Assembly (NCBI GenBank): GCA_903813345.2
Contig: CAIIXF020000006.1
Span: forward strand, 16,310,348-16,374,347
From: Owenia fusiformis
Lineage: Eukaryota; Annelida; Polychaeta; Sabellida; Oweniidae
Length of the DNA: 64,000 nucleotides
Direction of reading: 5' to 3'
Shown piece by piece: positions 13,808 through 63,061 of this stretch; within the stretch, counting starts at the first letter, position 1, and every line of letters begins with the position of its first letter. The notes under the pieces were generated by a model. That model did no database searches. It had not been told where the DNA came from and was given only the letters and a program-made list of their open reading frames with translations. The position numbers were made by a program, and so were the translations under genes.

Positions 13808-14119
13808 ATGGCTGAAAAAGGTTACCAGTATAGTTCTCCACTGACGGGAACTTCATCCGGAGCTCCAAAGCCCAGGATGTTGAAAGGAATGTTTGACGTT
13901 GTTCCCGATGCTTTCGATGGCTATGATAAATCACTTGGCCTTGGTAATCAGTCCCCACGTCACCAAGCAAAGGCCATCAAGAAAGATACTACCGAAGAGG
14001 AAAACAAGGAAGAAATGCTGGAAGTCACCATTAAGGAGAATGATAATGGATCTGTCACTGCAGAGAAGATCGAAGTTAAAGAAATCACAACTGCCATTGG
14101 GGATGAAGGAGTATATGGG
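13808..14119 (+). CDS. CRMP: CRMP first coding exon, long N-terminus
   Basis: The ATG at 13808 (context AAAATGG) opens a 312-nt, 104-codon exon ending at a GTAAAT donor in phase 0, matching the acceptor at 55471. The peptide is hydrophilic. It contains [20 protein letters not shown], resembling the GGMF..VEGAFES stretch of vertebrate long-form CRMP N-termini. The second half is acidic and Lys/Glu-rich, probably disordered. The upstream 5' UTR runs at least to about 13683. Confidence 0.8.
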
Positions 14120-29100: not shown

Positions 29101-32100
29101 ATGGTGTGGGAAGCACCCATCGATAGATATGTATCGAGAGGATGCATAGAATTACAAAACGCGTCGTGTTTACAGCAGTTTTAGGGTAAGTACTCTATTA
29201 TCGCCCGCTCCTGGATTTTGAGAAAAAAAAATTTTCTGATATATTCTTCAATTCTTGTTGATTCCTCGATGTTTCTTGAACTTTGTGAAGCGGGGTGGGC
29301 GCTTATTAGAGAGTGGGCGGTAATTACAGAGAATACGGTATGTATGATATATATACAAGCATAATTGTACAAATAGTGACTGCCATTAAGGGAAATAGTG
29401 CAAAATATTTTCCTCAAGGGAATATCCTGTCCACTGACATGGTGGCTCTGTTTTACTTCGGTCCAAAGCCTTCTCTATATTCCGGCTTTGAGTAGAAGTT
29501 GTTTACATGGCCCATAATCCAGTAAATAGAGATGTTTATGAGAATGGTGTCCAATGGGTATATATTTAAGAGATTTTTTACTAGATGTTTTAATTGATGT
29601 TTGTACGAGGTGTTTACTAGAAGGAGGTATATAACACTATAGGGATGTCTTCACAAGATAGAGGTGTTTGCAAGACCACTTGAAAGATACTTCATATGTA
29701 CTAAATATATTTAAAAAGATGGCGCATTACAAATGATATTGAACTCTTGCCTTGAAGTCAAAATTGAGTCACTTTGGATGATTACAAAATGCTTGTAATT
29801 ATCATAAATATACTACTACATTTATTTTATACATTTGCATTAAAACATATTTTGTTTTTGCTTCATTTTTGCCAAATAGCATTAATATCAGTCCCCTCCC
29901 TATTTTTCTGAAAAAGTAAGATTAATATTCTCCAGTATAGAATCACTAATCTTTCTTCTTAGTCATACAATATTCTTGATTGCTTAAGCTTTGCCTCACC
30001 TATTTGAATTTGCCTCACCTATTTGAATTTGCCTCACTTATTTAAATTTGCCTCACCTATTTGAATTTGCCTCACCTATTTCGGGTCTATACACTGCGTC
30101 CTCTGTCATTGCCAATTTTTTTTTATGATTAGACAATATTAAATGTATGTGGATGTACATGAATGATTTTTTATGTGACAGTTAAAGCTTTTAGCAAATT
30201 AGTTTCTTTTTAGTTCATTGATCGAAATTATGTAAGAAACTGTAATTATTACATGTAACAATCCCATTATCTTCTCAAATTGACAATTACATACATATGA
30301 TTTGATTACACATTAGAATGTGAAAATATTATATATTTTAGAGGTAACTTTAATATTATTCCCATTCTTGGTGTAATAGTGTCATTATTGCTACATCCAT
30401 CAGTTTATAAGTGTTTGCTGTTCATATGTCTGTCAAAATCTTCAATATTGACCCATAAGTGGCATCTCAAAAGATTGCCACATTTCAGAATGGCTGCAAT
30501 TTTTATTGTCATAAAACAGGTTTTCGGCACTTTCACCATGTGAGCCCAGTACCCATGGTACTATTCATTTACAAAATTCCTTTCTGTGCTTGGTGGTAAA
30601 AGAAAAGATATTTGTTAGAATTTAAGACCTAAAAAAGCCTATTTTATGCCTAATATTTGGAATGGGTCCTATATCTGCCAGCAGGGTTCACTGGATGACA
30701 AATTATCAATTCACCTATTCCTTTCCAAATTTTTTTTCTAAATTCTTAATACAAGTTAAGTAAAAATGCTATTCCATTTTCCTCTTAGGAAAATACAAAT
30801 TACACATCGTGACCCATTTTTTCTGTGGAAAGTTAAACATATGTGACATGTGACTAACAGGGTAATTATCCCATCAGCTTCATCGAATAATTTCAGACAA
30901 AATGACTAAAACAATCAAAAATCAATATTTATCCCTGGCAAAATTATAACTCACTTTTATAACTCAGCACTTTTGTAAGATTATATATAGGCTTTTATTC
31001 TACAAATAAGCTACTATTGATAAATGACAACTCAAAAAACATTGTATGATAATATCAATGTTTTCAGAATTATTTTGCAGATGAAAATCATTAATAATGT
31101 GAAATAAACTAATAATTTGCAAGGGAAGATCTTGTTCCCATTGGAATAGTCTGTATACCAGAATGAGCATTCTCCTCTGAACAAACCTAATCTGCCGGCT
31201 ATTTAATATTCAGAGCACACTTAATTCATGTTCCAGGGCCCTAGTTTGGCAAATCAATACAGAATATTCTTAGGGAGCCATATTATTAATTCCTGATTGG
31301 AAACTCAACTGAATACTCAATATATGATCCGTGATTTTGACATATTGATAAATAAATGAGTAAGGGGCAGTTTGGGGATAGTGTGCTGAGGTTTGGAGCA
31401 TATCTGATAACAGAAAAAGCAGGAAATCGAGGTGAACTTTTCCAGACACATGAACTAAGTTTGGAGTGAGAATACCCACTGCATATTAGAGTTGAACATA
31501 TTATGTGAGATAGTGTTTCACATACAATACAAACAGCTAAATATAACTGTAAATTCTAAGTACATATTGGACGAGTTTTGTATAAGTAAACATATCACTT
31601 TTGGATAACATAAAATGACTTCGCATCCAGTGAAAAAAGTCCCCATTCATTTACAGGTAAGGAACTTTTGTAGATAGCACACATATTCAGAAATAGCATG
31701 TAAGTATTTAGAACTATGATTATAGTATACATGTTACATGTTCAAAAGGTTAGGTTACTCTGAACTTTCTGAACCATAAAACTTTCTCGAAATCTGTCAT
31801 CTTCAATCAATCTTCAAGTGTAACTGTAAGTTTGTGATGTATTACTAAATGCATGTTAAATATAGGCTGGGTCTCTCAGGTTGAAACATAGACAAAGTAA
31901 TGAATTGTAATGTCTGTCTAGTGTGGCTGCCATCTCTTTTCATGATGTCTATCTCCACATATTGCAGGGTTTGCAACAAATATATGCTCTTCTTCTTCCC
32001 TTCTTCTTACCCCCCCCCCCCCTTCTTTCTCTTATATTTCATCAGGATTTTGATTTTCTTGATTCTAAAGTATCTGTATTGATGCATCTTCTTTATCCAA

Positions 32101-53100: not shown

Positions 53101-56100
53101 AACTTTTTGTGTCAGCATTTGGTGTTTGGTATTCAGCAGTTGGTGTTTGGGGGCTGGTGTTGAGTGATGACATTTTGCATGTTAATGCCTTGTTTTTTAT
53201 CTTTTGCTTGGGTTCAACGCTATATCCCCTGTTCTATTCATCTTGGGTCAACATTTTAATGCTTCCTTTGCAAGGAGGGACGGAGGGGCAGTAATGTTCA
53301 CCTTCATTATAATAAAAATATTGAAGAAAATAATTGAAAAATCTCAAATGAAGATGGGGCGGGCATCTTATCTTTCATTAAATTGATTTGCAGAAATCTT
53401 TTATATTTTTACCTGTACTAAAATATATAGTGGTTGTAAAGAAGTTGACTCTGAATGTTGATATACTTAATGTTTTATCACCATCTGAGACAGGTGAGGA
53501 TCATCTTCACATCTCCCTGATGTACTAAGTTCATACCTGGAATACCTGTATTAATCAGACAGACAGATGTGTACCAAGTGACGGAACTAAAATATGTCTG
53601 CTAGTAGACTATTTGCATTGCAGTTAAACTGTCAAAGAGGAACACCTCTACATGTCTTGTGTGATTTTTATTTTCTATACTTTGTTTTATGTTTGTCTAA
53701 AAATATACCTGGAAAACTTTAAAATCATTCTCACTCGGTATCAACAGTCATTAGTATCCATGGTGATCAAAGTTACCAATAGGGAAATGTGTGTCATGTT
53801 ATTCGTTTTATTCTGCACTCCTCAAATCCTTTGGATTCTGTGTTTGATAACTGTTTGCTTTAGATATGTTTAACTGTATGCGTCAATATGATGGCACTAT
53901 TTCCTGAATTCTAGCATTCAATATATTGGTGAACTACCAAATGCTAGTTCTCAAGAGTATTAGACAGCAGACAGTCTAGAATGCTGGATCTATCTGATCG
54001 GTCAACCATGTAATCACTTGTCATTTTTGATAAAGGGACAGGTGATAGATAGTGGGAAGGGAGGGGGGCAGAGACTCCATATAAGACTGCCATTCATGCA
54101 AATATGGTCCTCTCAGTATGTATCACATTGTATTCTACTATGTATCACACTGTGCTTCTCTATGTATCACATTGTGCTCATATTACATTGTGCTAGACTA
54201 TGAAGCACATAGTGCAAGTAGTCTATAGAGAGATGACCGCCTAGGTACTTCACCCTTAGACCTTTCACCCCATAGATATTTCACTCCTAGATGTTTTACC
54301 CCTTAGACATTTCACCCCCTGGGTATTTCATTCCCGAGACATTTCACCTACTAGACATGATTGAAATGTCCAAGGGGTGTAACATCCAGGGGTGAAATAT
54401 CTAAGGAGTGAAATGTCCAAGGGTGAAATGTCTAACGGGTGAAGCATCAAGGGGTGAAGATTACTTTTTAACTGGTTCAGGTTAGGTAGCAGTTGATGGA
54501 ATCAAGACAATTTAAAATAGTTGGTTACTTTCATATATCAAAACGTTCAAATTATAAAGATAAGTATTAACTTATCACTTATATGTTTAAATAAGTATAA
54601 ATGGCCATTAGGTTTTGAACTCAAACAAAAAAGTGTTTAATTTGTAATTTATAGTTTACTTTAAACCTGGCAGTAGGTTTAGTCTTGATACAACATATCT
54701 ACAATAATGGGATTATAAGATGACTGAATAAGTTTCATATATATGATCTGTAAATAGTTACAATTAATGCCCACATTTAACACCTGTGCTAAGGCTGGGG
54801 ATTATAGGATTAGGATTATCTCACTAAAGGATCCTCACATTTGGATTTGATTCTGAAACACTTTTACCTGCTTCAGTTTTATCACATTGTAAAGTATTTT
54901 TCCTTTGAAGTTTTCACAGATCTGTTTATTTTAGAGAGGATTTAGCGAAGTGCATCCAGAATCTGATTTTGATACTATAGTACGGATGTGCATTTAGGCC
55001 TGAATATGATATACTTGTGATAAGTTACAACAGAAGTGATATGATATATTTGAATATTAGAAGTGACAAGTAGCAAATAAGAATTAATTGATACTTATTC
55101 GAGAGGAAAATGAATGGACATGTCGAGGATGGGGTTTGCTTCTGTGATTGGTGTAAAGACAAAGTGAGCTTATATCTTCTTCACAGATTTTTTGACAACC
55201 TACTGGATGTAGAATTCTTTTTTTTTCAGTTCTAACCAAGAGATGGCAAAAACTGTCATAACAATTTTTCTGGCTCAGTGCTGGGAAGATCATTGTCATG
55301 ACATGGATTTGTTAAATTTTCTAAATGAGCAGACAGGTTTAACCTTGGTTTTTCAGTAATGATTGACTTACATTATATCTGCTATGAACATAGAATGATT
55401 TTCAGGTATTCTTTTTATTTGTATTATGTATGACTTCTATGTCTAATTCACCATTCATCATGTGTTTCAGAGTGCTCAATCAAGGCTCTTCATAAAAGGA
55501 GGTAAAATAGTGAATGACGATTGTTCCTTTGACGCTGACATCTACATTGAAGATGGTATCATCAAGTAAGTCAATCCTGTATATCATATCTTAATTGATT
55601 TATCCTTGATGGAAAATTATTGAGATGCGTAGTCTTACCGAGTCTCTGGCCACTCCCTCTATTAAATAGGGAGGAGGGCACAGGGGCCTGATTCTTTACT
55701 AGGAAAAGCAAGAAACATTTAGAAATTTCTATTTCACATCTTGTTGAAATAAGTTGGCACCTATAGGCTGTCATCATCCTTCTGTAATGGCAAATAAAGA
55801 CTCAAGAGAGATCAAAAACAAACTGCATGCAATATCATAACCAAGATGTTAACTTGAAAGTCTAAATCACTCTCACACACTTTAGTAGCTGAAAGATGCA
55901 GTGAAAAAATGTATGGTTAAACCTGTCGAAGTCGAACACCTTTGGTACCTGTAAAGTGTTCCACTTGGGAGGTGTTCCACTTGGTTCACTTAACATTAAG
56001 TCATTTGGTCTTAGGACTCTGAAAAGTGTTCTACTAACAGAGGTGTTCCACTTATGAAGGTGTTACACTTAACAGGTTTCACTGTACAGTATAACGATTG

Positions 56101-59100
56101 AGTTAACAATGAATTCAAGAAATAGCTCAACCAAAATTAGGCGGTATTCAAAATTCTAGAATTTATTCTTTGTATTTATTTTAAATAAGTTCAAAATCAA
56201 TTATCATTACATCATATTACATAATTGTCACTTTAGATAATAACATAAACGTATACTGTATAACTCCTATAATTCCAGGCAAGTTGGTAACAATCTCGTC
56301 ATTCCTGGTGGCTCACGAACAATTGATGCCCGGGGGCTCCTGGTCCTCCCTGGGGGTATTGACACTCACACCCATTTCCAGCTCCCATTCATGGGTACAC
56401 AGTCTGTAGATGACTTCTATTCAGGCACTAAGGCAGCCCTGGCTGGAGGCACCACAATGATAAGTATGTGGAACATTTCTTATGAGTTCAAATGTGAATG
56501 AATGAGATTTGAACCATCATGGAATAAAGTAAACAGGAATATTGTCAAAAATTGAAATGGGCCAAACAAGAAACATTTATGACTTTAAAATGATCAGTCA
56601 GCAACTTAAAAATTGTTCACACATTGAGGTTGGAAACGATTTTTTTACTCAAATTATAATATAATAGAAGCTGATTGAACCTAGAAGAACTTTGTATTGA
56701 GGCCAAATCAGATTTGTTTTATCTTGAATTTAGAAATTGCATTTTCTTCACATGTAATAAACTAATTGGTTCACAGGTGACAAAATGCCTCTAAATGTAA
56801 ATCCTGTAACCACTGCAACCTAAAGATGCTATTCTGCATTACAGTTGACTTTGTGCTAGATCAGAAGGGTGTTTCACTGCTAGATGCCTATGACAAATGG
56901 AGAGGTTGGGCTGATGCTAAAGTATGTTGTGACTATGGTCTCCATGTCGCTGTCACATGGTGGAGTGAGGATGTATCCAAACAAATGGAAATGCTCTGTG
57001 CAGAGAGAGGTATGTTTTTCCAATATACACAATTGATTTTCAGATAAGGTCCAGTTTTCCATTATACTTCTACTAGAAAATATAGGAAAAAGTGATATCG
57101 TTTTCATGTGATTTCATTTTTTTAATAATATCAGTTTGATGTAAATTCCATATACCATATATAGAGTGTATTTTATATAAACTGATTAAATGACTTATTT
57201 TCAGGTATCAATTCATTCAAGATGTTCCTTGCCTACAAAGATGTGTTCATGTTGGATGATTCAGAGCTCTACAGTGCATTTCAAAAGTGTAAAGAACTTG
57301 GTGCCTTGGCCATGGTACACGCTGAAAATGGACATCTCATTGCTGAAGTATGTTTACATATGTCTTTATCTCTGGCTTTTCATGACCTTTAAAACTCAGA
57401 GAATTTGATAAATATAAATATAAATTGGCCAGTGAAGTTTAGAATTTTGAGAAAGATCAAAGGAAATATCAAGGATATTAGGATAGTATTAACAAATCAC
57501 TATGCGGAAAGATATGTCAGTTTATTCTTTCACCATATATACAGGGTGGGCCAAAAAAAACAATACCCAAATTTAAAGATGAATGATTCATATAATATAT
57601 CTTAAACCTTGGCATGTACTATATATCATTTTAAAGATAAATCATTTCCTAACAATATGACACCATTCGATTGAAAAACTTTTGTTTCCTTGTGAAGATA
57701 GAGGCTAAAATTGACCCACCCTGTACATGTATGATTGTTTCAATTAAATTCATTTTATCAGAAATTGAATTTTTTGATAAAAGTATTTTTGCATTTTTTG
57801 AATATGATTATTATTATTTTGTTACAGAAATCAAAGGAGATGATATCGTCAGGAATTACAGGCCCAGAGGGTCACGCCATGTGCCGACCAGAAGAGGTAT
57901 GACTATGCAATCAATTCATACAAAGTGATCAATATACACAATTTTTTTTTTATTTATTCTTAGTATCAGTATAATAATTTGAAGACAATAATGATTTGAA
58001 CAAAAGATATATTGTAAAGATGGTAAAATTTTGCCAGTTTTTGAAATAGCAAATTTTGTTAAGCATGATTTTTCTTTGGATGCAAGTAAATGTCTAATCT
58101 GTGTTTTATTAATCGAGGGTTCCGTGATAAGGAAAAAGAAGCCACAATTGTTTTCAATGACCTTTAAAAGTCCTCCAAAAACATCCAAATTTGTCAGGGA
58201 AGTTCTGAATTCTGAGAAACATCATGAAAAATGTCAGGGAATTTTAAGCGAGTGAAATTTTGAAAAGTTGAAAATTGGATCGTTGATTGAAAAAAATGAA
58301 ATGAGAAAAAAACTAAATGAAAACTTTAGTCACCAAAAAATGTTTCAATGTTTGGTTTCCTTATTTTGTCAATAAAAACAACACAGTTGGTTTGAAATTT
58401 TACACTTCAATCAGGGAAATACCAGAATTTTGACTTCAAAACACTGTGACAACCCTGTAATTTTAGATGTGTTCAATTAGTGGTCTTCCTTGCATACTAG
58501 AATCATAGGATGTAATATGAAAGAACTGAGTGGGAGATGCCACTAACACAATATTAAGCATGGAGTTCTGTGCTCTTGTGGGCCCGATGTAACAGCATTG
58601 GAATTGAACAGTATTTGCTAACATGTTGCTTGCACGTGTATCTTACCATAGGTTGAAGCTGAAGCTGTAAATCGTGCTGTTACAATTGCGAGCCAGAGCA
58701 ACACCCCTCTTTACATTGTAAAAATCATGAGCAAGCAATCTGCAGATGTCATTGCTCAAGCTAGAAAGTGTGGTGAGTCATGGTGCATATGTGGTGTGCC
58801 ATTGGTGTTGTGAGAAAAAATGCTTAAAATCATATCAACAAATAGTCATATTGGTTTACTGAGAATTTACATGAAGATGTCAAAGTTGCTCTGTTTTTAG
58901 AAAGGATGATATGATTTGTTGTGCATTTTTTATATGTTGTTGTTGTAGTTTGTTGTACTTTATATGTTTTAGTGTTGTCCTGAGGAGCTGCATATGCCCT
59001 TGGGTTGATTTGCTTTCCGTAACCTTTTCATGCATGAACTTATCACAACGTGCATGTTAGATAAATATTTCTGAGTTCATTATCATTTCTCATAAATGCT

Positions 59101-62100
59101 TTCATTATATGCATTAGGTTGAGGCTGAAGCTACTCAGCGAGCTATCACAGTTGCCGATCAGGCAAACTGCCCCCTCTATGTTGTACACGTCATGAGCAA
59201 ATCTGCTGGTGATGTTGTTGCAGCTGCACGGCGGAAAGGTAGGGAGCATGTTGGTATTACTGTGGTCAGTCAATGTGGTAACAAACCAATTATTCGTCGG
59301 TAAGCTTCAGATAAGTCATTCTTTTATGAAAGTGTAACCACTTTCAAATCTCTGTCCATTTGTAAGGAAAGCACATCTTTGCATATATTCTACAATTTTG
59401 TAGATCCAAAGTGAACATGTGATGTTAAAATTCTGAACATGCTACTTTTATTACTATGAAGTTGATAATAACGTGTTCAGATAAAATTGATTGCAAAAAA
59501 GTAAGTGATAAGTCAATATTGGTAAAAACATGTCTGACCTCAAGGGAAACTAGAAGGTGTATATGTAATCGAATTATACTGCATGTTTTGCTTTTATTCA
59601 TATTTTTCACCCTGTAAAAACATTTTTGTAACACCCAGAAGCAGGTCTTGTAGTCATATATGTATGTATATGTGCTTTCTTTTCTTTCTTTTTTGTTGTG
59701 CAAAATGTAAAATAGAGGTTATTTTTATTTTAATTACATGTAATTAATTAATTTAGATTCAAAGAAAATGTATGTCATCTTTTCTGCTATGTCTAATAAG
59801 TTTTATGAATTGTAAACAAAACTTTTTTCCATGTATAATTATTTGAAGTTTACACTCAACGAAGCACCAAGTATTTATAGTACACAAATGTGTTATTTCT
59901 GTTTGAATATACAATTTAGACTCCTCAACTTGAACACTGCGCTAATAATATGTAACCTGAAGACTTTTCCTGTTAATTTAAATTCACCTTTCTTGGCTCT
60001 ATATTGCAGGTAATATAGTGTTTGGTGAGCCAATAGCAGCCAGTCTTGGTACAGATGGTACTCATCAGTGGAACAGATGTTGGCGACACTCTGCAGGACA
60101 CGTCATGGGACCTCCTCTCCGAGATGACCCCACCACCCCCGGGTATTTAATGGATCTCTTAGCAAGGTATGAGGAAGTCCGTCAATTTCATAGTGTGAAT
60201 TTTGTCTTGATGAATATCTAATAAAAAGGTTGATTCATTAAAAATTCATAGCTTGGTGCACGTGATGACTAGGGTCATTTCAGCCCAAAGTAAAATCTCC
60301 ATGATCTGTTCAGGTGTGTCAATAAAATTTGAGACCAATTACTCAGATGCGAGTAGGTAGTTACCAGTTTCGCCACCAGGTGGCTGATTCGGGGGAAATA
60401 ACATGGCAGGGTATTACAAAATTCCCTTAAACTTGAATATTCATCAGTTTTAGTGGTCCACTTTTCATATTACCCGTATGTGTCTGATAGTTATACAAAT
60501 TAAAATAAGTCCAGGAAAAGAAAATATTATCTGCCTAACATAAGAAAAGATATTTCACTTTTTGTGATTTTACAACATGGGGTCTATGGGGAATCTCCTC
60601 GACCTAGAAGTCACATTTTCAAAGAAAATAAAATTTTCAAAGTTGATAAACTCTTTTCTAAACTACATTTCTAGATTTAATTTTACATGTAGATTCCAAA
60701 TATGACATCAGTTTGACGGAATTTTGAATTTTTAATGACATAAATCAAGATTATTTCTACTCGCATCTAGTCTATTGAACTGTGAACCAGTTGCCATGCA
60801 CTGTACCATAGACTGTATAAAATTTATGATGATCATTTCAGCGGTGACCTTCAAGTCACTGGCACCGATAACTGCACATTTAACGCTGAGCAAAAGGCGC
60901 TAGGGAAGGATGACTTCAGAAAAATTCCCAATGGAGTCAATGGTGTAGAGGATAGGATGTCTGTCATATGGGAGAAAGGAGTGGTAAGTGAAATATTAGC
61001 AGTAATGTTGACATATTGGCATACTGACATGATGGGCAGACATGTTAAAAAATCATATTCATGAATAATAGCTAGACTTAAGTTTTAGTTACATTTAATA
61101 TTGAGCTGTAAAGTTTTTACTTTGGCTAATCCAAACTACAATATCCAGTATTTATTATTCGTTAGATTTTTAAAATTCCATTTTCATTTGAGTACCAATT
61201 GATTATCTAATAAAATGCAAACATACATGTACATCTATAATATGTGTAACTGTATGTATCTCCATTTCAGCACTCAGGCAAGATGGACCCCTGCAGGTTT
61301 GTAGCAGTGACCAGCACAAATGCAGCAAAGATATTCAACGTTTATCCTAAAAAGGTAACGTTTTAACTCCTTGATCTTAGCTTGTCTTTTTGAAAACATC
61401 AGTTTTGAGATTCCCGAATTCAAATTACCCAAAATTGGTGATGGTTGTCATTTCAGGTTACATTATTTTTTCAGTTTTCTCCTTTAGGAGAGCATAGAAT
61501 TATTTTGAAATTTCACCTGAGATTGTGTTCCTGACCTATCCTCACAATTTATATACTTAAAGGACCCATAGCATCATGATAATCCATGACATCTCATTTC
61601 TTCTCAGCCCTGAGATGCCATGATATAATGAGCTTGATTTGGCGATCCAGGAGAGCCCAAAATTGAGGATTTTTGAGATCTTTCATCCCAGCTCATATTT
61701 CATTTAATTGGGGTCATTAAACTTGTGTACACGTGCCTGTGCTACTATCTGCTGTTAAATACAATGCTTATTATGTAATGTATTGACATTAGGTAAATGA
61801 TTACATGATAACTATCATACTTATTGACAGTTATAACTCTTCCCATCTGATGTGCTCAGATCACAGAATATGCCTCATAATATCAGAGCATGTTTCAGGT
61901 GAAACAGAAAGATGCTATGAGTATCAGAATGGACCCATAGTAGCTACATTGAATTTATTTATAAGGACTTTTAAATTGAGCATGCATCTTTCATCTATAC
62001 AGGGCCGCATTCAAGTGGGATCAGATGCTGACCTTGTTCTCTGGGATGCCAACAAGACGCGCACTATCTCAGCCAAGACACATCACCAGGCAGTTGACTT

Positions 62101-63061
62101 CAACATATTTGAGGGTATGGTGGTCCATGGTGTTGCTTCTACTGTGATCAGCGGAGGAAGAGTTGTACTGGATGAAGGAGAGGTATGTTCCATCAACACC
62201 ATATTATATAAAAACTGTAAACCTAGACTAAAACAATTCAAGGTACAAGTACATAACATTACTCTTTTAAGTTTTTCAATAAGAGAACAAAGTTTTTTCA
62301 ATCGAATGGTGTCATATGTCATAGGAAATGATTTATCTTTAAAATGATATATAATACATGGCAAAGTTTAACATGTATCATATTTCTTGCATTGAGTAAG
62401 TTATTAATTATTTTGTTGTCACGTTTTAGCTTCACGTCACCCAAGGTGTGGGCAAGTTTGTTCCAACCCCTGTCAATGCTGAACATGTATATGGCCGTGT
62501 ACGAAACAGGGAATCGGTGAGTTAATTAGACAGGCTTACACATTGGTACTGTCTAACTCACGCTACATAGAGTTTGCTCCCCTGTGTTATAGCTAAGGCA
62601 ATTGGCTATGTGCACTAGCAAATTTGATGGGATGATCAGTCCATCATGGTATGATAGGAATTACACCGGAATTAATATATTAATCATCTTAGAATTTGTA
62701 TGTAAATAACTTTAAATTTCCATTAAAATAGTAAAATGTTCTGGACAGAATGTATTCAGGACAGTGATGAAACAATGTTTGAAAGGATGAAAAGAACATT
62801 TTGTAAGAATTTCTCATGGCAATAAATGCATACATTTCTATAAAATACCTTTTTTACAGGCCCGTATTCCACAAAAGGTAGTTCGTGATCCATATGAAGG
62901 CAAAGTCATCGAGATTTCCAATACTGTCGCTGACAGCCATGCTCCCATCAATCCAATCTGTCCCAATGCCATCAATGGTGCAGACCCCTTCTCCACACAT
63001 AGCAGACCCCCTACAAGTAGTGGCGGTAGGAACCTGCAGGATTCTAGCTTCTCTCTTAGTG
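13808..63061 (+). CDS. CRMP: CRMP / dihydropyrimidinase-like protein gene (alternative first exons, mutually exclusive exon 7; last exon beyond window)
   Basis: Coding exons: 13808-14119 (long start) or 31615-31656 (short start), then 55471-55565, 56279-56463, 56845-57009, 57205-57347, 57828-57896, 58652-58772 or 59118-59238, 60010-60166, 60842-60983, 61271-61354, 62003-62182, 62430-62516 and 62860-63061. All junctions are GT-AG and in phase. The long form reaches 647 codons here. The amidohydrolase barrel has the dihydropyrimidinase metal set in long-form numbering: His166 and His168 (THTH), Lys258 (SFKMF), His291 (VHAEN), position 347 in exon 7, and Asp425 (TGTDNC). Their spacings (90, 33, 56, 78) equal those I recall for human DPYS. 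The C-terminus ([12 protein letters not shown]) is CRMP-like. Family roles are cytosolic 5,6-dihydropyrimidine hydrolysis (DHP) or cytoskeletal/axon-guidance signalling (CRMP). Introns 1 and 2 carry most of the transposons in the window. Confidence 0.9.
14272..14350 (-). repeat. tRNA-like sequence (SINE head or tRNA pseudogene)
   Basis: On the minus strand there is a B-box-like GGGTTCGATCA preceded by an anticodon-arm-like GCCTTGTAAGC (loop with TGT, Thr-like) and GAGGGGTCGTG. The A box and acceptor ends do not pair well, so a functional tRNA is unlikely. It lies at the edge of a degenerate tandem region. Confidence 0.45.
14351..14960. repeat. Degenerate short tandem repeat (GGAGCACC units)
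   Basis: About 25 diverged units containing GGAGCACC, CATAGAGCA or similar, mixed with CCATCCC, spaced roughly 20-35 bases apart. It keeps no frame; an old minisatellite. Confidence 0.6.
14961..15802. other. CRMP intron 1 segment, no feature seen
   Basis: AT-rich sequence with no recognisable element or exon on either strand. Confidence 0.4.
15803..15957. repeat. Long hairpin, ~65-bp arms
   Basis: The arm AATGATAGGCCATTCAATAT, continuing to ACAGAATGTTGTAC, is answered by its near-perfect complement, which ends at TTATTTATTCC. The loop is about 25 bases. It directly abuts a region whose ends (TTCAAACAT at 15961 and ATGTTTGAA near 16350) are also inverted. The layout resembles the paired modules at 26496-28211 and 50420-50788. 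Confidence 0.8.
15958..16372. mobile_element. Short non-coding element with CRE and CCAAT motifs
   Basis: Bounded by ATTCAAACAT and ATGTTTGAAT. It contains TGACGTCA at 16216-16223 and ATTGGTTGAG near 16315. The companion element at 50538-50788 has the same motif pair. Boundaries are approximate. Confidence 0.45.
16435..16865 (+). mobile_element. MITE-like element, copy 1 (partner at 60344-60777)
   Basis: 431 bp. It starts CAATAGACTAGATGCGAGTA and ends CTACCTACTCGCATCTG, so the terminal AGATGCGAGTAG is inverted. The same element occurs at 60344-60777 in the opposite orientation (434 bp) with the same internal landmarks (CCCATAGACTCC, GAGCCACCTGGTGG). No protein coded. Confidence 0.85.
17345..17460 (+). 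repeat. Dispersed repeat (TGTTAATGCCTTGTT 3' end), copy
   Basis: Contains repeated GTTGGTGTTTGGCATTC-like units and ends TTTTGCATGTTAATGCCTTG. The same end occurs at 24185, 47755 and 53195. Confidence 0.7.
17900..18989. mobile_element. Tc1/mariner-like element with ~190-bp inverted ends, 1090 bp
   Basis: Begins CAGGGTGGTCCAAAAAAAAT and ends with the complement, flanked by TA on both sides (17898-17899, 18990-18991). The inverted repeats extend about 190 bp with scattered mismatches, past TATAGGTGCAAAC, into the centre. TA duplication and CAGGGTG ends fit Tc1/mariner. The middle has no transposase reading frame, so it is a non-autonomous, foldback-type derivative. Confidence 0.88.
18992..19652. 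other. CRMP intron 1 segment, nothing recognised
   Basis: AT-rich; no exon, hairpin or tandem array seen. Confidence 0.35.
19653..19843 (+). mobile_element. Small MITE, CAGTGAAACCTG ends, copy 1
   Basis: Starts CAGTGAAACCTGTAAAGTGG and ends with a degenerate complement (CAGGTTTTACT). The interior repeats GTGGAACAC. A related copy lies in reverse orientation at 55915-56084, with partial similarity at 32693-32800. Confidence 0.7.
19844..24089. other. CRMP intron 1 segment, nothing recognised
   Basis: About 4.2 kb of AT-rich sequence. Short open frames (for example 20434-20652, 21395-21661) have low-complexity AT-driven composition and no family resemblance. GCCAACTGGTAAGGTAT recurs near 21081 and 22591. 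Confidence 0.4.
24090..24185 (+). repeat. Dispersed repeat (TGTTAATGCC end), diverged copy
   Basis: GTTGGTGTTTGACATTAGG, then GTCTGTAACAAATGGCAG and TTTTGCATGTTAATGCC, as at 17345-17460 and 47638-47755. Confidence 0.6.
24569..25245. repeat. 31-bp minisatellite, about 21 copies, with degenerate tail
   Basis: Units such as GATGTCCTTAGATGGAGGTG followed by TTCACTAGAAA recur every 31 bases. The last few copies (25100-25230) are almost identical (GATGGGGGTGTTCATGAGAA), implying recent duplication there. Decayed GTGTTCACTA units continue to about 25675 and resume at 29525-29690, beyond an inserted 3.8-kb block. Confidence 0.95.
25730..25890 (+). repeat. GCACAGAATATGCAAATTAG block with AT-rich tails
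   Basis: CAGAATATGCAAATTAGATA followed by TATATGTATA-like sequence occurs here twice, again at 27100 and 28215, and inverted/direct around 28310-28560. These are subterminal parts of the composite element. Confidence 0.75.
26019..26447. mobile_element. Foldback element flanked by TTAA, 429 bp
   Basis: TTAA (26015-26018) then GGTTCAGCTGGAAAGTAAC; the complement ends at 26447 before TTAA (26448-26451). Arms of about 130 bp pair, including CAGGAAAGTATCATTACA. TTAA duplications are typical of piggyBac-type insertion, but the end sequence is not a classic piggyBac end and no transposase is present. Confidence 0.85.
26496..26854. repeat. Module A1: terminal inverted repeat element
   Basis: ATTTCATACCTACTGAGGTT at the left and its near complement ending GTAGGTATGAAAT at the right. 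Inside are a GCGGGATGGATACAC hairpin (about 26572-26602) and a T-rich tract. Followed at once by module B1. Confidence 0.8.
26861..26998. repeat. Module B1: 138-bp hairpin
   Basis: GTTATGTACGGTCGGTTTTG pairs with CAAAACCTCCCAGTACATAAC. The arms run about 60 bp around a loop with CCCTGCGGTCCCTCGG. Same length and almost the same sequence as B2. Confidence 0.9.
27074..27158 (+). repeat. Internal copy of the composite element's left end
   Basis: GGCTTATGGGCCATGTAAAC followed by CAGCACAGAATATGCAAATT, as at 25705. It separates module pair 1 from pair 2. Confidence 0.85.
27160..27528. repeat. Module A2: terminal inverted repeat element
   Basis: TTCATACTTGAGTGGGTTTG with the matching complement CCAAACCCACTCAAGTATG near 27506-27524. 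The terminal stem differs from A1 on both arms yet pairs perfectly with itself. The interior is GC-rich hairpin (GCGGGCAGATATAATATATC and similar), then a run of TTTAAAAA repeats. Confidence 0.85.
27535..27672. repeat. Module B2: 138-bp hairpin
   Basis: Nearly identical to B1, with paired arms GGTTTTGGATACAG and its complement, and loop CCCTGCGGTCCCTCG. Confidence 0.9.
27680..28065. repeat. Module A3: terminal inverted repeat element
   Basis: TATCCCATACTTGG at the left and ATTGGTATGGGATA at the right. The GC-rich GAGCGGGCAGATATAG hairpin is near 27770-27802. A short open frame at 27828-28028 has no recognisable similarity. Confidence 0.7.
28071..28211. repeat. Module B3: hairpin with a different stem but the same loop
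   Basis: ATTATCCTATAGTCGGTTCA pairs with TGAACCTCATATAGGATAAT. The stem GGATATTGGGATTATCCC differs from B1/B2 at many positions on both arms, while the loop CCTGCGGCCCTCGGG is kept. Confidence 0.9.
28305..28505. repeat. Back-to-back element ends forming a ~200-bp palindrome
   Basis: GCTGGTTTACATGGCCCATAA (28391-28411), GCC, then its exact complement (28415-28435). The pairing extends outward through ATATGCAAATTAGATAGATA into AT-rich tails. It looks like two composite-element ends joined head to head. Confidence 0.85.
28557..29339. mobile_element. TA-flanked DNA element, 783 bp, inserted in the composite block
   Basis: The ends TACCGTATTCTCTGTAATTA and its complement at 29320-29339 include a TA on each side. 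Removing the element and one TA recreates the sequence at 28268-28303 (GTATTTATATATATGTATGA), an in-window empty site. The interior has GCGCCC/GGGCGC motifs near both ends and no transposase frame. The superfamily is not certain. Confidence 0.88.
29521..29700. repeat. Continuation of the 31-bp minisatellite
   Basis: Decayed units (GGTGTTTACTAGAAGGAGGT, GATAGAGGTGTTTGCAAGA) resume right after the composite block, showing the block inserted into the array. Confidence 0.65.
29991..30081. repeat. 19-bp minisatellite, 5 copies
   Basis: TTGCCTCACCTATTTGAAT units begin at 29991, 30010, 30029, 30048 and 30067. Confidence 0.95.
30082..31614. other. CRMP intron 1 and likely promoter region of the short isoform
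   Basis: No repeat or exon recognised. The part just upstream of 31615 probably contains the promoter and 5' UTR of the short transcript, but no firm core-promoter motif can be named. Confidence 0.3.
31615..31656 (+). CDS. CRMP: CRMP alternative first coding exon, short N-terminus
   Basis: The ATG at 31615 starts 14 codons, [14 protein letters not shown], ending exactly at a consensus CAG|GTAAGG donor in phase 0, the same phase as the long first exon. The peptide aligns with the short N-terminus of vertebrate CRMPs (MSHQGKKSIPHIT type), directly upstream of the conserved RLFIKGG in exon 2. The match of sequence, length, phase and splice site makes this more than chance, though transcript evidence is absent. 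Confidence 0.75.
33368..33435. repeat. 34-bp tandem duplication
   Basis: GTTTCACTTGAAAAATAACA with AGTGAAAAAGCCTT occurs twice exactly, head to tail. Each unit is itself a short TTCACTTG/CAAGTGAA hairpin. Confidence 0.9.
36562..36621. repeat. 30-bp tandem duplication
   Basis: CTGTTTCTGCTATAATACCA followed by GTTACTGGTA occurs twice in a row, exactly. Confidence 0.9.
37034..37810. mobile_element. Possible MITE with ~45-bp imperfect inverted ends
   Basis: TCCATTGGGATCTCCCCATG (left, near 37041) faces CATGGGGAGATCATAATGGC (right, near 37784). The interior contains a second inverted pair, TATGACCTGAATCGATTG / CAATCGATTCAGGTCATA (37449-37552). Exact ends and target duplication are not clear. Confidence 0.5.
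39400..39715 (+). repeat. Dispersed repeat related to the flank of the 162-bp array
   Basis: Two units share TACTAGAGCTGATTAACTTT, GGCCATCTTGTTTTCT and TGTCATCGCC. The end TCTCGTTCACGTCCTGTGCC matches the sequence after the array at about 8758. Preceded by GTGGTCGTGATCG microsatellite (39313-39345). Confidence 0.6.
40286..40475 (-). repeat. Ngaro split repeat B2 (3' end)
   Basis: 190 bp, essentially identical to 40790-40979. A 41-bp spacer (40476-40516) separates it from A2. Confidence 0.92.
40517..40793 (-). repeat. Ngaro split repeat A2
   Basis: 277 bp, same length as A1 at 45793-46069 with only a few differences (for example TCTACGAGC against TCTTTGAGC). Contains CCAAT-type motifs (GATTGGCT twice) that could act in the element's promoter. 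Confidence 0.92.
40790..40979 (-). repeat. Ngaro split repeat B1
   Basis: 190-bp partner of B2. It begins one base after the stop of the truncated RT frame and overlaps A2 by 4 bases. Confidence 0.92.
40981..41721 (-). pseudogene. Reverse transcriptase of the Ngaro-like element, truncated
   Basis: A 246-codon frame. From about residue 90 it matches the DIRS/Ngaro RT N-terminus: [38 protein letters not shown], then [11 protein letters not shown]. Fingers and the start of the palm are present. The frame reaches motif A ([11 protein letters not shown], about residues 232-242), then has GYSF and a stop. The YxDD motif, RNase H and tyrosine recombinase are absent. Its first 68 codons overlap the Gag end in another frame, so RT was probably made by frameshift or reinitiation. 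The GYSF tail may be the remnant of the last ORF joined by an internal deletion near 40993. Confidence 0.85.
41516..43129 (-). CDS. Gag-like protein of the Ngaro-like element, Gln/Asn/Gly/Pro-rich
   Basis: 537 codons from ATG 43129. Residues 1-140 are rich in Gln, Pro, Gly, Asn and Met. Residues about 140-280 are a tandem decapeptide, [10 protein letters not shown] and variants, with about 14 copies. Residues about 290-450 look folded. The C-terminus has a CCCH-like finger (C-x8-C-x4-C-x3-H, from residue 475) and a knuckle-like C-x2-C-x3-H-x4-C, followed by a basic tail. Such fingers are usual in DIRS/Ngaro Gag and bind RNA. The low-complexity domain resembles prion-like, condensate-forming sequences (inference). 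The frame is intact. Confidence 0.85.
   Translation of the reverse strand: MAQQPGGNPQLLNQVGDNVAQAAQQLPQQGQMAGQQAVMPNQNAANGGQAQPQVPIAGHQQNPNMGQQLGPGQGPLQNPVIGQGQAGNIQIPNPGMGQVLMPNPGMNQGQPGNGIGQGVLPNPGINPGQPGNQQFQNPGLDQGYNQQPGMNQGYNQNQMIGQGYNHNPGMGQGNNQNPGMVQGNNQNPGMVQGQNPGMVQGYNQNPGMIQGNNQNPGMVQGYNQNPGMVQGLNQNPGMNQGFNQNPGIGQGYNQNPGMVQGYNQNPGMVQGYNQMQGINPQATGPWRPDQIGQFATQGNTNTLMFTGNQLDTHVSDSLRQKIVKNEYVDLKTLLVKTDSNQEFKYVTEKEDGEERLILKPIETKSKIVSISDWQSAFFVFMTVYIRQHPNEAINLVKYASHILSLSKTPNANWQQYDEDFRRNKLLAGLRWEVLNHELLLAATVIKPSHPQQSKGFQKNMSQKSGKNSFRESPICFRWNDGEFCQFSSCKYRHVCKFCQEKHRATDCKQGRSQKSKLFNQNNKNSSRFVKKSKESHS
42295..42700. repeat. 30-bp coding minisatellite in Gag
   Basis: Units such as CTGGACCATACCGGGGTTTT plus GGTTGTAGCC recur every 30 bases in frame, with occasional 24-bp units. 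Third-position differences between units suggest selection or older divergence in part of the array. Confidence 0.9.
43540..44340. repeat. Irregular AGCGTGC-rich spacer between Gag and SGNH frames
   Basis: About 20 copies of AGCGTG or GCAAGCGTGC, with AAGCGTTCAACA and TACCTGCGGGTA interspersed at irregular intervals. There is no open frame. It could be a packaging, splicing or translational control region (inference). Confidence 0.7.
44397..45077 (-). CDS. SGNH/GDSL-like hydrolase of the Ngaro-like element
   Basis: 226 codons from ATG 45077. Block I is [11 protein letters not shown], with the nucleophile Ser18 in GHS instead of GDS. Block II is [12 protein letters not shown] (Gly near 55-58). 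Block III is QIAGNDV (Asn86). Block V is [12 protein letters not shown], with Asp186 and His189. All four SGNH positions are present, so an esterase-like fold is likely. SGNH domains are known passengers of Ngaro and some other non-LTR/YR retroelements; their role is unclear. The frame is intact and lies first in the element, upstream of Gag. Confidence 0.85.
   Translation of the reverse strand: MNEWSTMSLPWVLLFGHSLINRILEPGEDFSEEFRNKCPPSLDLSVDQCHLSYEGVPGGTLKKLDERDLWKSMNNFDVVVAQIAGNDVKHIVMSNLEIQGICMKTLNMVQRLLQYVSVVVLCKLFYRKASLSRSSRIRCTDHQRNYNANVDKINANLSYELKNETNIYLWRTKGQILNGLSMLGVDGTHFNEDGHYKYWRSLRGAVLHGLASKCSWARLHFNAVHK
45078..45792 (-). other. 5' leader of the Ngaro-like element
   Basis: No convincing protein. 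It contains the palindromic CCAAT motif CATTGGCCAATG (about 45352-45363). A small 66-codon frame at 45485-45685 has no recognisable similarity. Confidence 0.4.
45793..46069 (-). repeat. Ngaro split repeat A1 (5' end)
   Basis: 277-bp partner of A2 and the left terminus of the element on its coding strand. The sequence after it (GTATTGAGG) is host DNA. Confidence 0.92.
46070..48993. other. CRMP intron, little recognised
   Basis: Only the dispersed repeat at 47638-47755 stands out. No exon seen. Confidence 0.35.
47638..47755 (+). repeat. Dispersed repeat with GTCACCACC..GTGGTGAC hairpin head
   Basis: ATGTCACCACCAGAAGTGGT opens a hairpin; then GTATCTGTAACAAATGGCAG and the end TTTTGCATGTTAATGCCTTG. 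The same layout is at 53061-53195. Confidence 0.75.
48994..49765. mobile_element. Nested foldback element, 772 bp
   Basis: The outer arms of about 138 bp (48994-49131 and 49628-49765) are near-perfect complements, starting ACCCTGGGTATAGTCTATCA. An inner inverted pair of about 80 bp (49165-49245 and 49312-49395; AGAATAGTTTGCTATTTTGT) sits between them. The outer arms contain TCACGTGAC and GATGACGTGTGCGCGAGTGA. No coding frame. Confidence 0.9.
49931..50111. repeat. ~38-bp minisatellite, 5 copies
   Basis: GGTGTCACATATGATCATTG recurs in units of 38, 32, 38, 35 and 38 bp. Length differences are multiples of the internal GTT step. Confidence 0.92.
50420..50532. repeat. Module B-type hairpin with unique stem
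   Basis: TTATGTCACTATCGTGGCAT pairs with ATGTGCCACGATAGTGACAT and on to TAA. GCCCGAGG and CCGAGGGC border the loop, as in B1-B3. Confidence 0.9.
50538..50788. mobile_element. Module A-type element with CRE-like palindrome
   Basis: TTATAACATACCTATGATGA at the left and TCATCATAGGTATGTTATAA at the right. Inside, GATTGGT and ACCAATC flank TGACGTCA (50674-50681), followed by GCGGGCGCGGGC. It sits 5 bases from the B-type hairpin. Confidence 0.85.
50789..53060. other. CRMP intron, nothing recognised
   Basis: Decayed GTGTTCACTA units at about 50930-51180 resemble the 31-bp array; there is a poly-G near 50980. No exon seen. Confidence 0.35.
53061..53195 (+). repeat. Dispersed repeat with GTCACCACC..GTGGTGAC hairpin head
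   Basis: ATGTCACCACCACAAGTGGT and GACAT form a perfect hairpin. The GTTGGTGTTTGG units and the TTGCATGTTAATGCCTTGTT end follow. Confidence 0.8.
53196..54240. other. CRMP intron, nothing recognised
   Basis: Three loose copies of CTATGTATCACATTGTG near 54115-54180; otherwise plain sequence. Confidence 0.35.
54241..54457. repeat. Inverted pair of short tandem arrays (TAGACATTTCACCCC)
   Basis: Six or seven units of the TAGACATTTCACCCC type run to about 54350. They are followed by six units of the complement (GGGGTGAAATGTCTA type) to 54457. The whole can fold into one long imperfect hairpin. Confidence 0.85.
54458..55470. other. CRMP intron before exon 2, nothing recognised
   Basis: No repeat or alternative first exon identified. 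Confidence 0.35.
55471..55565 (+). CDS. CRMP: CRMP exon 2 (first shared exon)
   Basis: TTTCAG acceptor, phase 0; GTAAGT donor after 95 nt. Encodes [17 protein letters not shown] and then [10 protein letters not shown], the beta-sandwich start of dihydropyrimidinase/CRMP proteins. Confidence 0.92.
55915..56084 (-). mobile_element. Small MITE, CAGTGAAACCTG ends, copy 2
   Basis: Ends at ...ACAGGTTTCACTG; the interior repeats GTGTTCCACTT. Reverse-oriented relative of 19653-19843, in CRMP intron 2. Confidence 0.75.
56279..56463 (+). CDS. CRMP: CRMP exon 3 (His-x-His metal site)
   Basis: 185 nt between a TTCCAG acceptor and GTATGT donor. Encodes [19 protein letters not shown], giving the two barrel zinc ligands His166 and His168, then [20 protein letters not shown]-like THTH is retained; several vertebrate CRMPs have lost the second His. 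Confidence 0.95.
56845..57009 (+). CDS. CRMP: CRMP exon 4
   Basis: 165 nt. Encodes [20 protein letters not shown], then a segment with [13 protein letters not shown]. Phase 1 at both ends. Confidence 0.93.
57205..57347 (+). CDS. CRMP: CRMP exon 5 (carboxylated Lys and third His)
   Basis: 143 nt. Encodes [13 protein letters not shown], in which Lys258 is at the carboxylated-lysine position, and [15 protein letters not shown], in which His291 is a zinc ligand. The spacing of 33 residues equals that in dihydropyrimidinases. Confidence 0.95.
57542..57723. mobile_element. TA-flanked MITE, 182 bp, in CRMP intron 5
   Basis: CAGGGTGGGCCAAAAAAAAC at the left and TTGACCCACCCTG at the right, with TA on both sides. 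Tc1/mariner-like ends; no coding. A related fragment lies at about 62263-62370. Confidence 0.85.
57828..57896 (+). CDS. CRMP: CRMP exon 6
   Basis: 69 nt, phase 0 at both ends. Encodes [16 protein letters not shown], the conserved TGPEGH loop. Confidence 0.93.
58652..58772 (+). CDS. CRMP: CRMP alternative exon 7a (CRMP-type, Lys at ligand site)
   Basis: 121 nt, phase 0 in, phase 1 out, CATAG acceptor and GTGAGT donor. Encodes [17 protein letters not shown], then [20 protein letters not shown]. The residue at the fourth zinc-ligand position (347) is Lys, as in vertebrate CRMPs (YVTKVMSK). Without His the binuclear site should not form, so this isoform is predicted to be non-catalytic. Including both 7a and 7b would shift the frame. 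Confidence 0.92.
59118..59238 (+). CDS. CRMP: CRMP alternative exon 7b (dihydropyrimidinase-type, His at ligand site)
   Basis: 121 nt, same phases as 7a, ATTAG acceptor and GTAGGG donor. Encodes [17 protein letters not shown], then [20 protein letters not shown]. His347 lies 56 residues after His291 and 78 before Asp425, exactly the dihydropyrimidinase spacing. This isoform is predicted to be an active 5,6-dihydropyrimidine amidohydrolase. Confidence 0.92.
60010..60166 (+). CDS. CRMP: CRMP exon 8
   Basis: 157 nt. Encodes [19 protein letters not shown] and then [28 protein letters not shown] is of dihydropyrimidinase type, unlike the vertebrate CRMP version of this loop. Confidence 0.95.
60344..60777 (-). 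mobile_element. MITE-like element, copy 2, in CRMP intron 8
   Basis: Reverse-oriented partner of 16435-16865. Ends CAGATGCGAGTAGGTAG (left) and CTACTCGCATCTAGTCTATT (right). Confidence 0.85.
60842..60983 (+). CDS. CRMP: CRMP exon 9 (catalytic Asp)
   Basis: 142 nt. Encodes [20 protein letters not shown], where Asp425 is the catalytic/metal Asp, then [20 protein letters not shown]. Vertebrate CRMPs lack this Asp. Confidence 0.95.
61271..61354 (+). CDS. CRMP: CRMP exon 10
   Basis: 84 nt, phase 0. Encodes [20 protein letters not shown] and then IFNVYPKK. Confidence 0.95.
62003..62182 (+). CDS. CRMP: CRMP exon 11
   Basis: 180 nt, phase 0. Encodes [20 protein letters not shown], then [20 protein letters not shown], the C-terminal sandwich domain. 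Confidence 0.95.
62263..62370 (-). repeat. Fragment related to the MITE at 57542-57723
   Basis: TCAATCGAATGGTGTCATAT and GGAAATGATTTATCTTTAAA match the complement of the interior of 57542-57723. The terminal CAGGGTG ends are missing. Confidence 0.7.
62430..62516 (+). CDS. CRMP: CRMP exon 12
   Basis: 87 nt, phase 0. Encodes [20 protein letters not shown] then YGRVRNRES. Confidence 0.93.
62860..63061 (+). CDS. CRMP: CRMP exon 13 (C-terminal regulatory tail)
   Basis: 202 nt with an ACAG acceptor and G|GTAGGC donor. Encodes [17 protein letters not shown], then a Ser/Thr/Pro-rich part ending [14 protein letters not shown]. The ending matches the CRMP tail NLHQSGFSLSG, and vertebrate genes splice at the same Gly. 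If the donor is skipped, the frame runs on to a stop near 63243, giving a different tail. Confidence 0.88.

Follow-up and report, generated by a model that had tools for sequence, protein, structure and literature searches.

In vertebrates, dihydropyrimidinase (DPYS) and the CRMPs (DPYSL) are encoded by separate genes. Exons 9a and 9b of Drosophila CRMP were reportedly treated by Morris et al. in 2012. The present analysis concerns a dihydropyrimidinase/CRMP gene of the annelid Owenia fusiformis and, above all, two adjacent exons of that gene, designated 7a and 7b; the stretch analysed (64,000 nucleotides (nt), contig CAIIXF020000006.1, positions 16,310,348 to 16,374,347 of the forward strand) is referred to as the window. 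For the fly gene, an enzyme role is given in PMC3650022. In a review (PMC8652244), exon 9a is described as non-neuronal, as carrying a conserved histidine and as being needed for pyrimidine catabolism, and exon 9b as neuronal; in an exon-switching survey (PMC7954323), the zinc-binding "residue 192" changes from His to Gly between isoforms. An earlier reading of the window, made from the sequence only, had named Drosophila CRMP as a gene that switches between enzyme and CRMP, and the principle is indeed published (PMC8652244, PMC7954323). A related case is GNAO, for which PMC5896119 reports that, after the teleost genome duplication, one set of mutually exclusive exons was lost from one gene copy, whereas zebrafish, medaka and stickleback have a copy in which both sets are retained. 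Among the titles and abstract openings of the matches listed, no report of the splice pair outside the fly was found; subscription papers and annotation databases lay outside this scope, so absence is unproven. With the principle already known from the fly, a possible new point is the age of the His/Lys exon pair.

The Owenia gene very probably encodes both a dihydropyrimidinase (with exon 7b, six metal ligands) and a CRMP-type protein (with exon 7a, His replaced by Lys at one ligand position), by means of exactly one of the following two homologous exons:

58652..58772, plus strand: alternative exon 7a, 121 nt, CRMP type, Lys at the fourth ligand position
59118..59238, plus strand: alternative exon 7b, 121 nt, dihydropyrimidinase type, His as the fourth ligand

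Both exons are 121 nt in length, have equal phases and are separated by 345 nt. They are identical at 74 of 121 nucleotides and 24 of 41 residues, and the two spliced isoforms differ at 17 residues only. When the two peptides were searched with tblastn against the whole window, they recovered each other (reciprocal E value 2e-13), and no third copy was found there above noise (next best E value 1.1 for 7a and 3.1 for 7b). If 7a and 7b are joined, a stop codon arises inside the first five bases of 7b; if neither is used, a stop is met in the third codon of exon 8. Several later junctions follow each of these stops, and the resulting transcripts would be expected to decay. The exons are thus adjacent, homologous and matched in length and phase, with neither joint inclusion nor joint omission being productive, and from this arrangement we infer that transcripts carry exactly one of them. 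The exon ends, GT-AG sites and phases of the sequence-only reading proved exact to the base (end of exon 6 at 57896, 7a at 58652–58772, 7b at 59118–59238, start of exon 8 at 60010), and its statement that inclusion of both exons breaks the frame agrees with the stop at the beginning of 7b.

The divergence between the two exons (nonsynonymous, dN, 0.41; synonymous, dS, 1.41; dN/dS about 0.29, a rough estimate from one short pair) indicates apparent constraint. This ratio speaks against one of the two exons being a relic that has dropped out of splicing, as does the finding that both are open, phase-matched and bounded by GT-AG, with 30–32 of 41 residues identical to different vertebrate proteins. 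What could be said for a relic lies in the splice sites: the acceptors of both 7a and 7b end in TAG, as against 1 of the 11 shared acceptors, and the donor of 7b is GTAGGG, 6 of the 11 shared donors being GTAAGT or GTATGT (the exon 13 donor is GTAGGC). A relic exon is considered highly improbable.

Five of the six metal ligands are encoded by shared exons, and the fourth-site residue alone lies in 7a/7b. When residues are numbered from exon 2, the fourth ligand is residue 243, which is Lys with 7a and His with 7b; the 7b isoform has all six ligands at family spacing. The spacings from the first ligand onwards are 92, 33, 56 and 78, and human dihydropyrimidinase aligns without gaps between the first and the last ligand, with the same spacings. 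Both the ligand swap (His in 7b, Lys in 7a) and the location of the other ligands in shared exons at dihydropyrimidinase spacings had been claimed beforehand, and they were recovered here. The residue numbers 166, 258, 291 and 425 used at that time are the exon-2-based numbers plus a constant 104, an offset due to the 104 residues of the long first exon (13808–14119). In solved structures the fourth-site His serves the second zinc; with Lys in its place in 7a, the second zinc site would be lost or weakened, and one zinc might stay.

Bacterial relatives were sampled as the best 80 of 556, and 10 of these were removed because a stop interrupted the translated match. All six ligands are intact in each of the 70 that were left, with His at the fourth site in 70 of 70; as one bacterial search pattern included HTH and hence two of the ligands, the remaining four positions alone amount to an open test. 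Across these 70 (from the best 80 of 556) and 7 animal rows, Lys at the fourth site was present only in 7a and in CRMP1, CRMP2 and CRMP4. No Lys-type exon pattern was found in bacterial genomes, and no relatives were found in viral contigs.

The comparison of ligands with vertebrate CRMPs covered CRMP1, 2, 4 and 5. The fourth site is Lys in each of CRMP1, CRMP2 and CRMP4. The residues of CRMP4, CRMP2 and CRMP1 (in this order) at the five remaining ligand positions are H/H/N, H/R/Y, M/L/Q, H/H/H and A/A/G, which corresponds to two further ligand losses in CRMP4, three in CRMP2 and four in CRMP1, in unlike ways. The further losses typical of these proteins are not present in the 7a isoform, in which five of the six ligands are kept; the Asp and the ligand Lys are retained in shared exons, though CRMP1, 2 and 4 lack both. 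The sole loss that is identical across CRMP1, 2 and 4 is that of the fourth site, which is encoded here by the alternative exon. The unlike losses map to exons that are shared here, where a change would harm the enzyme, as expected if the exon choice preceded the vertebrate gene copies; for such an order of events this pattern would be an argument, not proof.

Similarity searches were consistent with two protein types. Searched alone, the 7a peptide matched CRMP2 first (E value 5e-14), followed by DPYSL3 (3e-12), DPYSL4 (6e-11) and dihydropyrimidinases (4e-10 to 1e-8); 7b matched dihydropyrimidinases first (5.6e-15 to 5e-13), the best CRMP2 being at 2.5e-12. In terms of identities over 41 residues, 7a shares 32 with CRMP2, 28 with CRMP4, 26 with CRMP1, and 27 and 26 with two DPYS proteins, and 7b shares 30 and 32 with DPYS and 25 to 27 with the CRMPs. 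At the eight diagnostic positions, defined as those at which CRMP1/2/4 and the two enzymes have no residue in common, 7a has the CRMP residue at five, the enzyme residue at one and neither at two; 7b has the enzyme residue at four, the CRMP residue at two and neither at two. The complete 7b isoform falls within the Pfam family Amidohydro_1 (E value 6e-27). Among solved structures, both complete isoforms matched human dihydropyrimidinase best (774 bits for 7a, 787 bits for 7b), followed by a fish dihydropyrimidinase and then by CRMPs (683 bits or less). The tail common to both isoforms contains the motif RNL..S.FSLSG and aligns through FSLSG with DPYSL3 (3e-5) and CRMP1 (7e-5), both weak scores; its single best match is DPYS (1.5e-5), covering only the first 55 of 97 residues.

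Several observations weigh against assigning 7a to a CRMP-type protein. The complete 7a isoform scores higher against dihydropyrimidinase (774 bits) than against the CRMPs (at most 683 bits), a consequence of the shared exons. CRMP1 (9e-10 to 4e-9) and CRMP5 (6e-6 to 9e-6) rank below the fish enzyme in the search with 7a, and 7a is no nearer to CRMP1 (26/41) than to the enzymes (27/41 and 26/41). CRMP5 has Asn instead of Lys at the fourth site, and the 7a isoform keeps five ligands, so a loss of activity would not be certain. The fly change, as printed in the survey, is His to Gly at "residue 192", as opposed to His to Lys at the fourth ligand here; the fly exon pair was compared by its published description. 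Depending on whether human or domain numbering was used in the survey, "residue 192" would be the third or the fourth ligand.

The sequence-only reading had proposed a switch between an enzyme and an inactive signalling form. The switch itself is upheld by the ligand swap, the phases, the frame breaks and the resemblance of 7a to CRMP2 and of 7b to dihydropyrimidinase; the word "inactive" is less certain, as five of the six ligands remain in 7a and one zinc might still bind. In the mechanism proposed here, splicing would use one of 7a and 7b per transcript, the choice probably being made by splicing regulators that act on the acceptors of the two exons, which both end in TAG, and wrong exon combinations would be removed through their early stops. 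The 7b protein is predicted to be an active dihydropyrimidinase, and in the 7a protein this activity would be lost or weakened. By analogy with the description of the fly gene, the 7a protein may serve in the nervous system.

The age of the split was addressed with trees. In the animals-only exon tree, 7a and the CRMPs were split from 7b and the enzymes with a support of 92/90 (Shimodaira–Hasegawa-like approximate likelihood-ratio test/ultrafast bootstrap); with outgroups, the support was 87/91 for 7a with the CRMPs and just 43/63 for 7b with the enzymes. With outgroups, trees with 7a and 7b as sisters were worse by 12.4 log units when the pair either joined the enzymes or fell outside both families, and by 11.1 log units when it joined the CRMPs (approximately unbiased (AU) test, p 0.08–0.11); without outgroups, the sister tree was worse by 9.35 log units (AU p 0.05). 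In simulations under the sister tree, the observed difference of 9.49 was reached in 0 of 200 cases (maximum 5.87). The difference in log-likelihood (9.4) shrinks to 4.9 without the ligand column, to 5.8 without columns 23–25 and to 1.6 without columns 6 and 24. Much of the signal of the exon tree rests in the latter two columns, and the drop to 1.6 leaves room for convergence.

On this dependence on few columns (9.4 falling to 4.9 and 1.6), and on AU tests that allow 7a and 7b as sisters (p 0.05–0.11), a different origin of the pair could be built, in which a duplication within this lineage produced one exon from the other, and 7a converged on the vertebrate CRMPs by the same ligand loss. Such local copying, which concerns the origin only, is rated as unlikely: 7a shares 32 of 41 residues with CRMP2 versus 24 of 41 with 7b, and none of the 200 simulations under the sister tree produced the observed difference. 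The His/Lys split may be older than the separation of this lineage and the vertebrates, and the exon tree, if right, would imply an age greater than that of the protostomes. The sequence-only reading had suggested an arrangement that is old in protostomes, which would depend on the fly exons being homologous to 7a and 7b.

For the shared exons, trees that join them to the enzymes and trees that put them outside both vertebrate families fit about equally (difference of 0.09 log units), and those that join them to the CRMPs were worse by 4.6 log units (AU p 0.054). Because the first two placements fit equally, gene-first and exon-first histories are inseparable on these data. The same equality (0.09 log units) would suit an ancestor with separate enzyme and CRMP genes, from which this lineage, and perhaps insects, gained the CRMP exon by recombination, the other gene being lost; this origin would, however, require an exact in-phase exon insertion, possibly twice, and the alignment of this gene's tail to those of CRMPs also counts against it; it is held to be improbable. 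A tentative alternative, given rather more credence here though short of being favoured outright, is that the last common ancestor with vertebrates had one gene with the exon pair, that DPYS and DPYSL arose from copies each keeping one exon, and that the CRMP copies were then free to lose ligands of the formerly shared exons.

With regard to the choice between 7a and 7b, the following features were noted:

58917..58978, plus strand: UGUUGU-rich tract within the 7a–7b intron, a candidate splicing-regulator site (lead only)
58588..58634, plus strand: upstream arm of a possible long stem, covering what is probably the 7a branch region (lead only)
59239..59283, plus strand: downstream arm of this possible stem, starting at the 7b 5′ splice site (lead only)

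The intron between 7a and 7b contains seven UGUUGU hexamers as against 0.15 expected (0 of 5000 shuffles had as many), and six of the seven form the densest plus-strand cluster of the window; the tract at 58917–58978 is a candidate site of the CELF/Bruno type. The imperfect pairing of 58588–58634 with 59239–59283 was equalled in strength by 0 of 100 shuffles, yet by 4 of 80 genomic control pairs. As an explanation of the choice this stem was rejected, as it would hide sites of both exons. Competing RNA structures in introns 6–7 and 7–8 were likewise discarded, as 8 of 12 and 11 of 12 shuffles, respectively, paired just as strongly. Sites of the Rbfox type (UGCAUG), one of twelve motifs tried, are present at 59031 and 59051. 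Their count has a Poisson p of 0.006, but it was matched by 592 of 5000 shuffles and is not significant. The UGUUGU tract and the long stem are leads only, and the mechanism of the choice stays a proposal.

The gene extends on the plus strand from at least 13808 to beyond 63061. Two possible first exons, of 104 residues (long) and 14 codons (short), are followed by twelve further coding segments, one of which is present in the two versions 7a and 7b; every splice site of the twelve segments, including those of 7a and 7b, is of the GT-AG type. The remaining parts of the gene are as follows:

13808..14119, plus strand: long alternative first exon, 104 residues, ends in ...EGVYG, donor GTAAATAT, phase 0
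31615..31656, plus strand: short alternative first exon, 14 codons, donor GTAAGGAA, phase 0
55471..55565, plus strand: shared exon 2, 95 nt
56279..56463, plus strand: shared exon 3, 185 nt, HTH with the first two ligands
56845..57009, plus strand: shared exon 4, 165 nt
57205..57347, plus strand: shared exon 5, 143 nt, FKMF with the ligand Lys and VHAEN with the third-site His
57828..57896, plus strand: shared exon 6, 69 nt
60010..60166, plus strand: shared exon 8, 157 nt
60842..60983, plus strand: shared exon 9, 142 nt, ligand Asp (TGTDNC)
61271..61354, plus strand: shared exon 10, 84 nt
62003..62182, plus strand: shared exon 11, 180 nt
62430..62516, plus strand: shared exon 12, 87 nt
62860..63061, plus strand: shared exon 13, 202 nt, carries the tail

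The last exon and the 3′ end of the gene were not found inside the 64,000-nt window, and the 3′ end presumably lies past its edge. The long first exon (13808–14119) gave no Pfam match above the Pfam cut-off. The long and short first exons (13808–14119 and 31615–31656) resemble the long and short forms of vertebrate CRMPs.

Within the introns, inverted copies about 90% complementary to each other are located at 57590–57691 and 62281–62383 and probably represent a dispersed element. The long first intron holds an open frame of 537 residues (41516–43129, minus strand) with Q/N/G/P-rich repeats and Cys/His-rich stretches; a Pfam search of this frame gave no match, and a retroelement gag-like protein is a guess. 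Near the start of the window, minus-strand open frames at 115–396 and 910–1197 contain acyl-CoA dehydrogenase domains (Pfam PF02770, 1e-14, and PF02771, 1e-6) and are probably exons of a neighbouring gene.

The exon pair would be a compact case in which the exchange of a single exon makes a probable signalling protein out of an enzyme, and a natural pair of proteins only 17 residues apart bears on what CRMP function needs. Should the pair have the age suggested by the tree, the two forms existed as splice isoforms before they were shared out among vertebrate gene copies. In Drosophila CRMP 9a/9b, as described, the arrangement is the same: one gene, two mutually exclusive exons, a dihydropyrimidinase versus a CRMP, and removal of a zinc-binding or catalytic histidine. 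In GNAO, the loss of an exon set after duplication is the process proposed here for DPYS and DPYSL; the gene and the clade are different, and one copy there retains both exon sets. Vertebrate DPYS and DPYSL provide the same two protein types, with 7a nearest to CRMP2 and 7b nearest to DPYS, but vertebrate CRMP1, 2 and 4 lack further ligands, whereas the 7a isoform has lost the fourth only.

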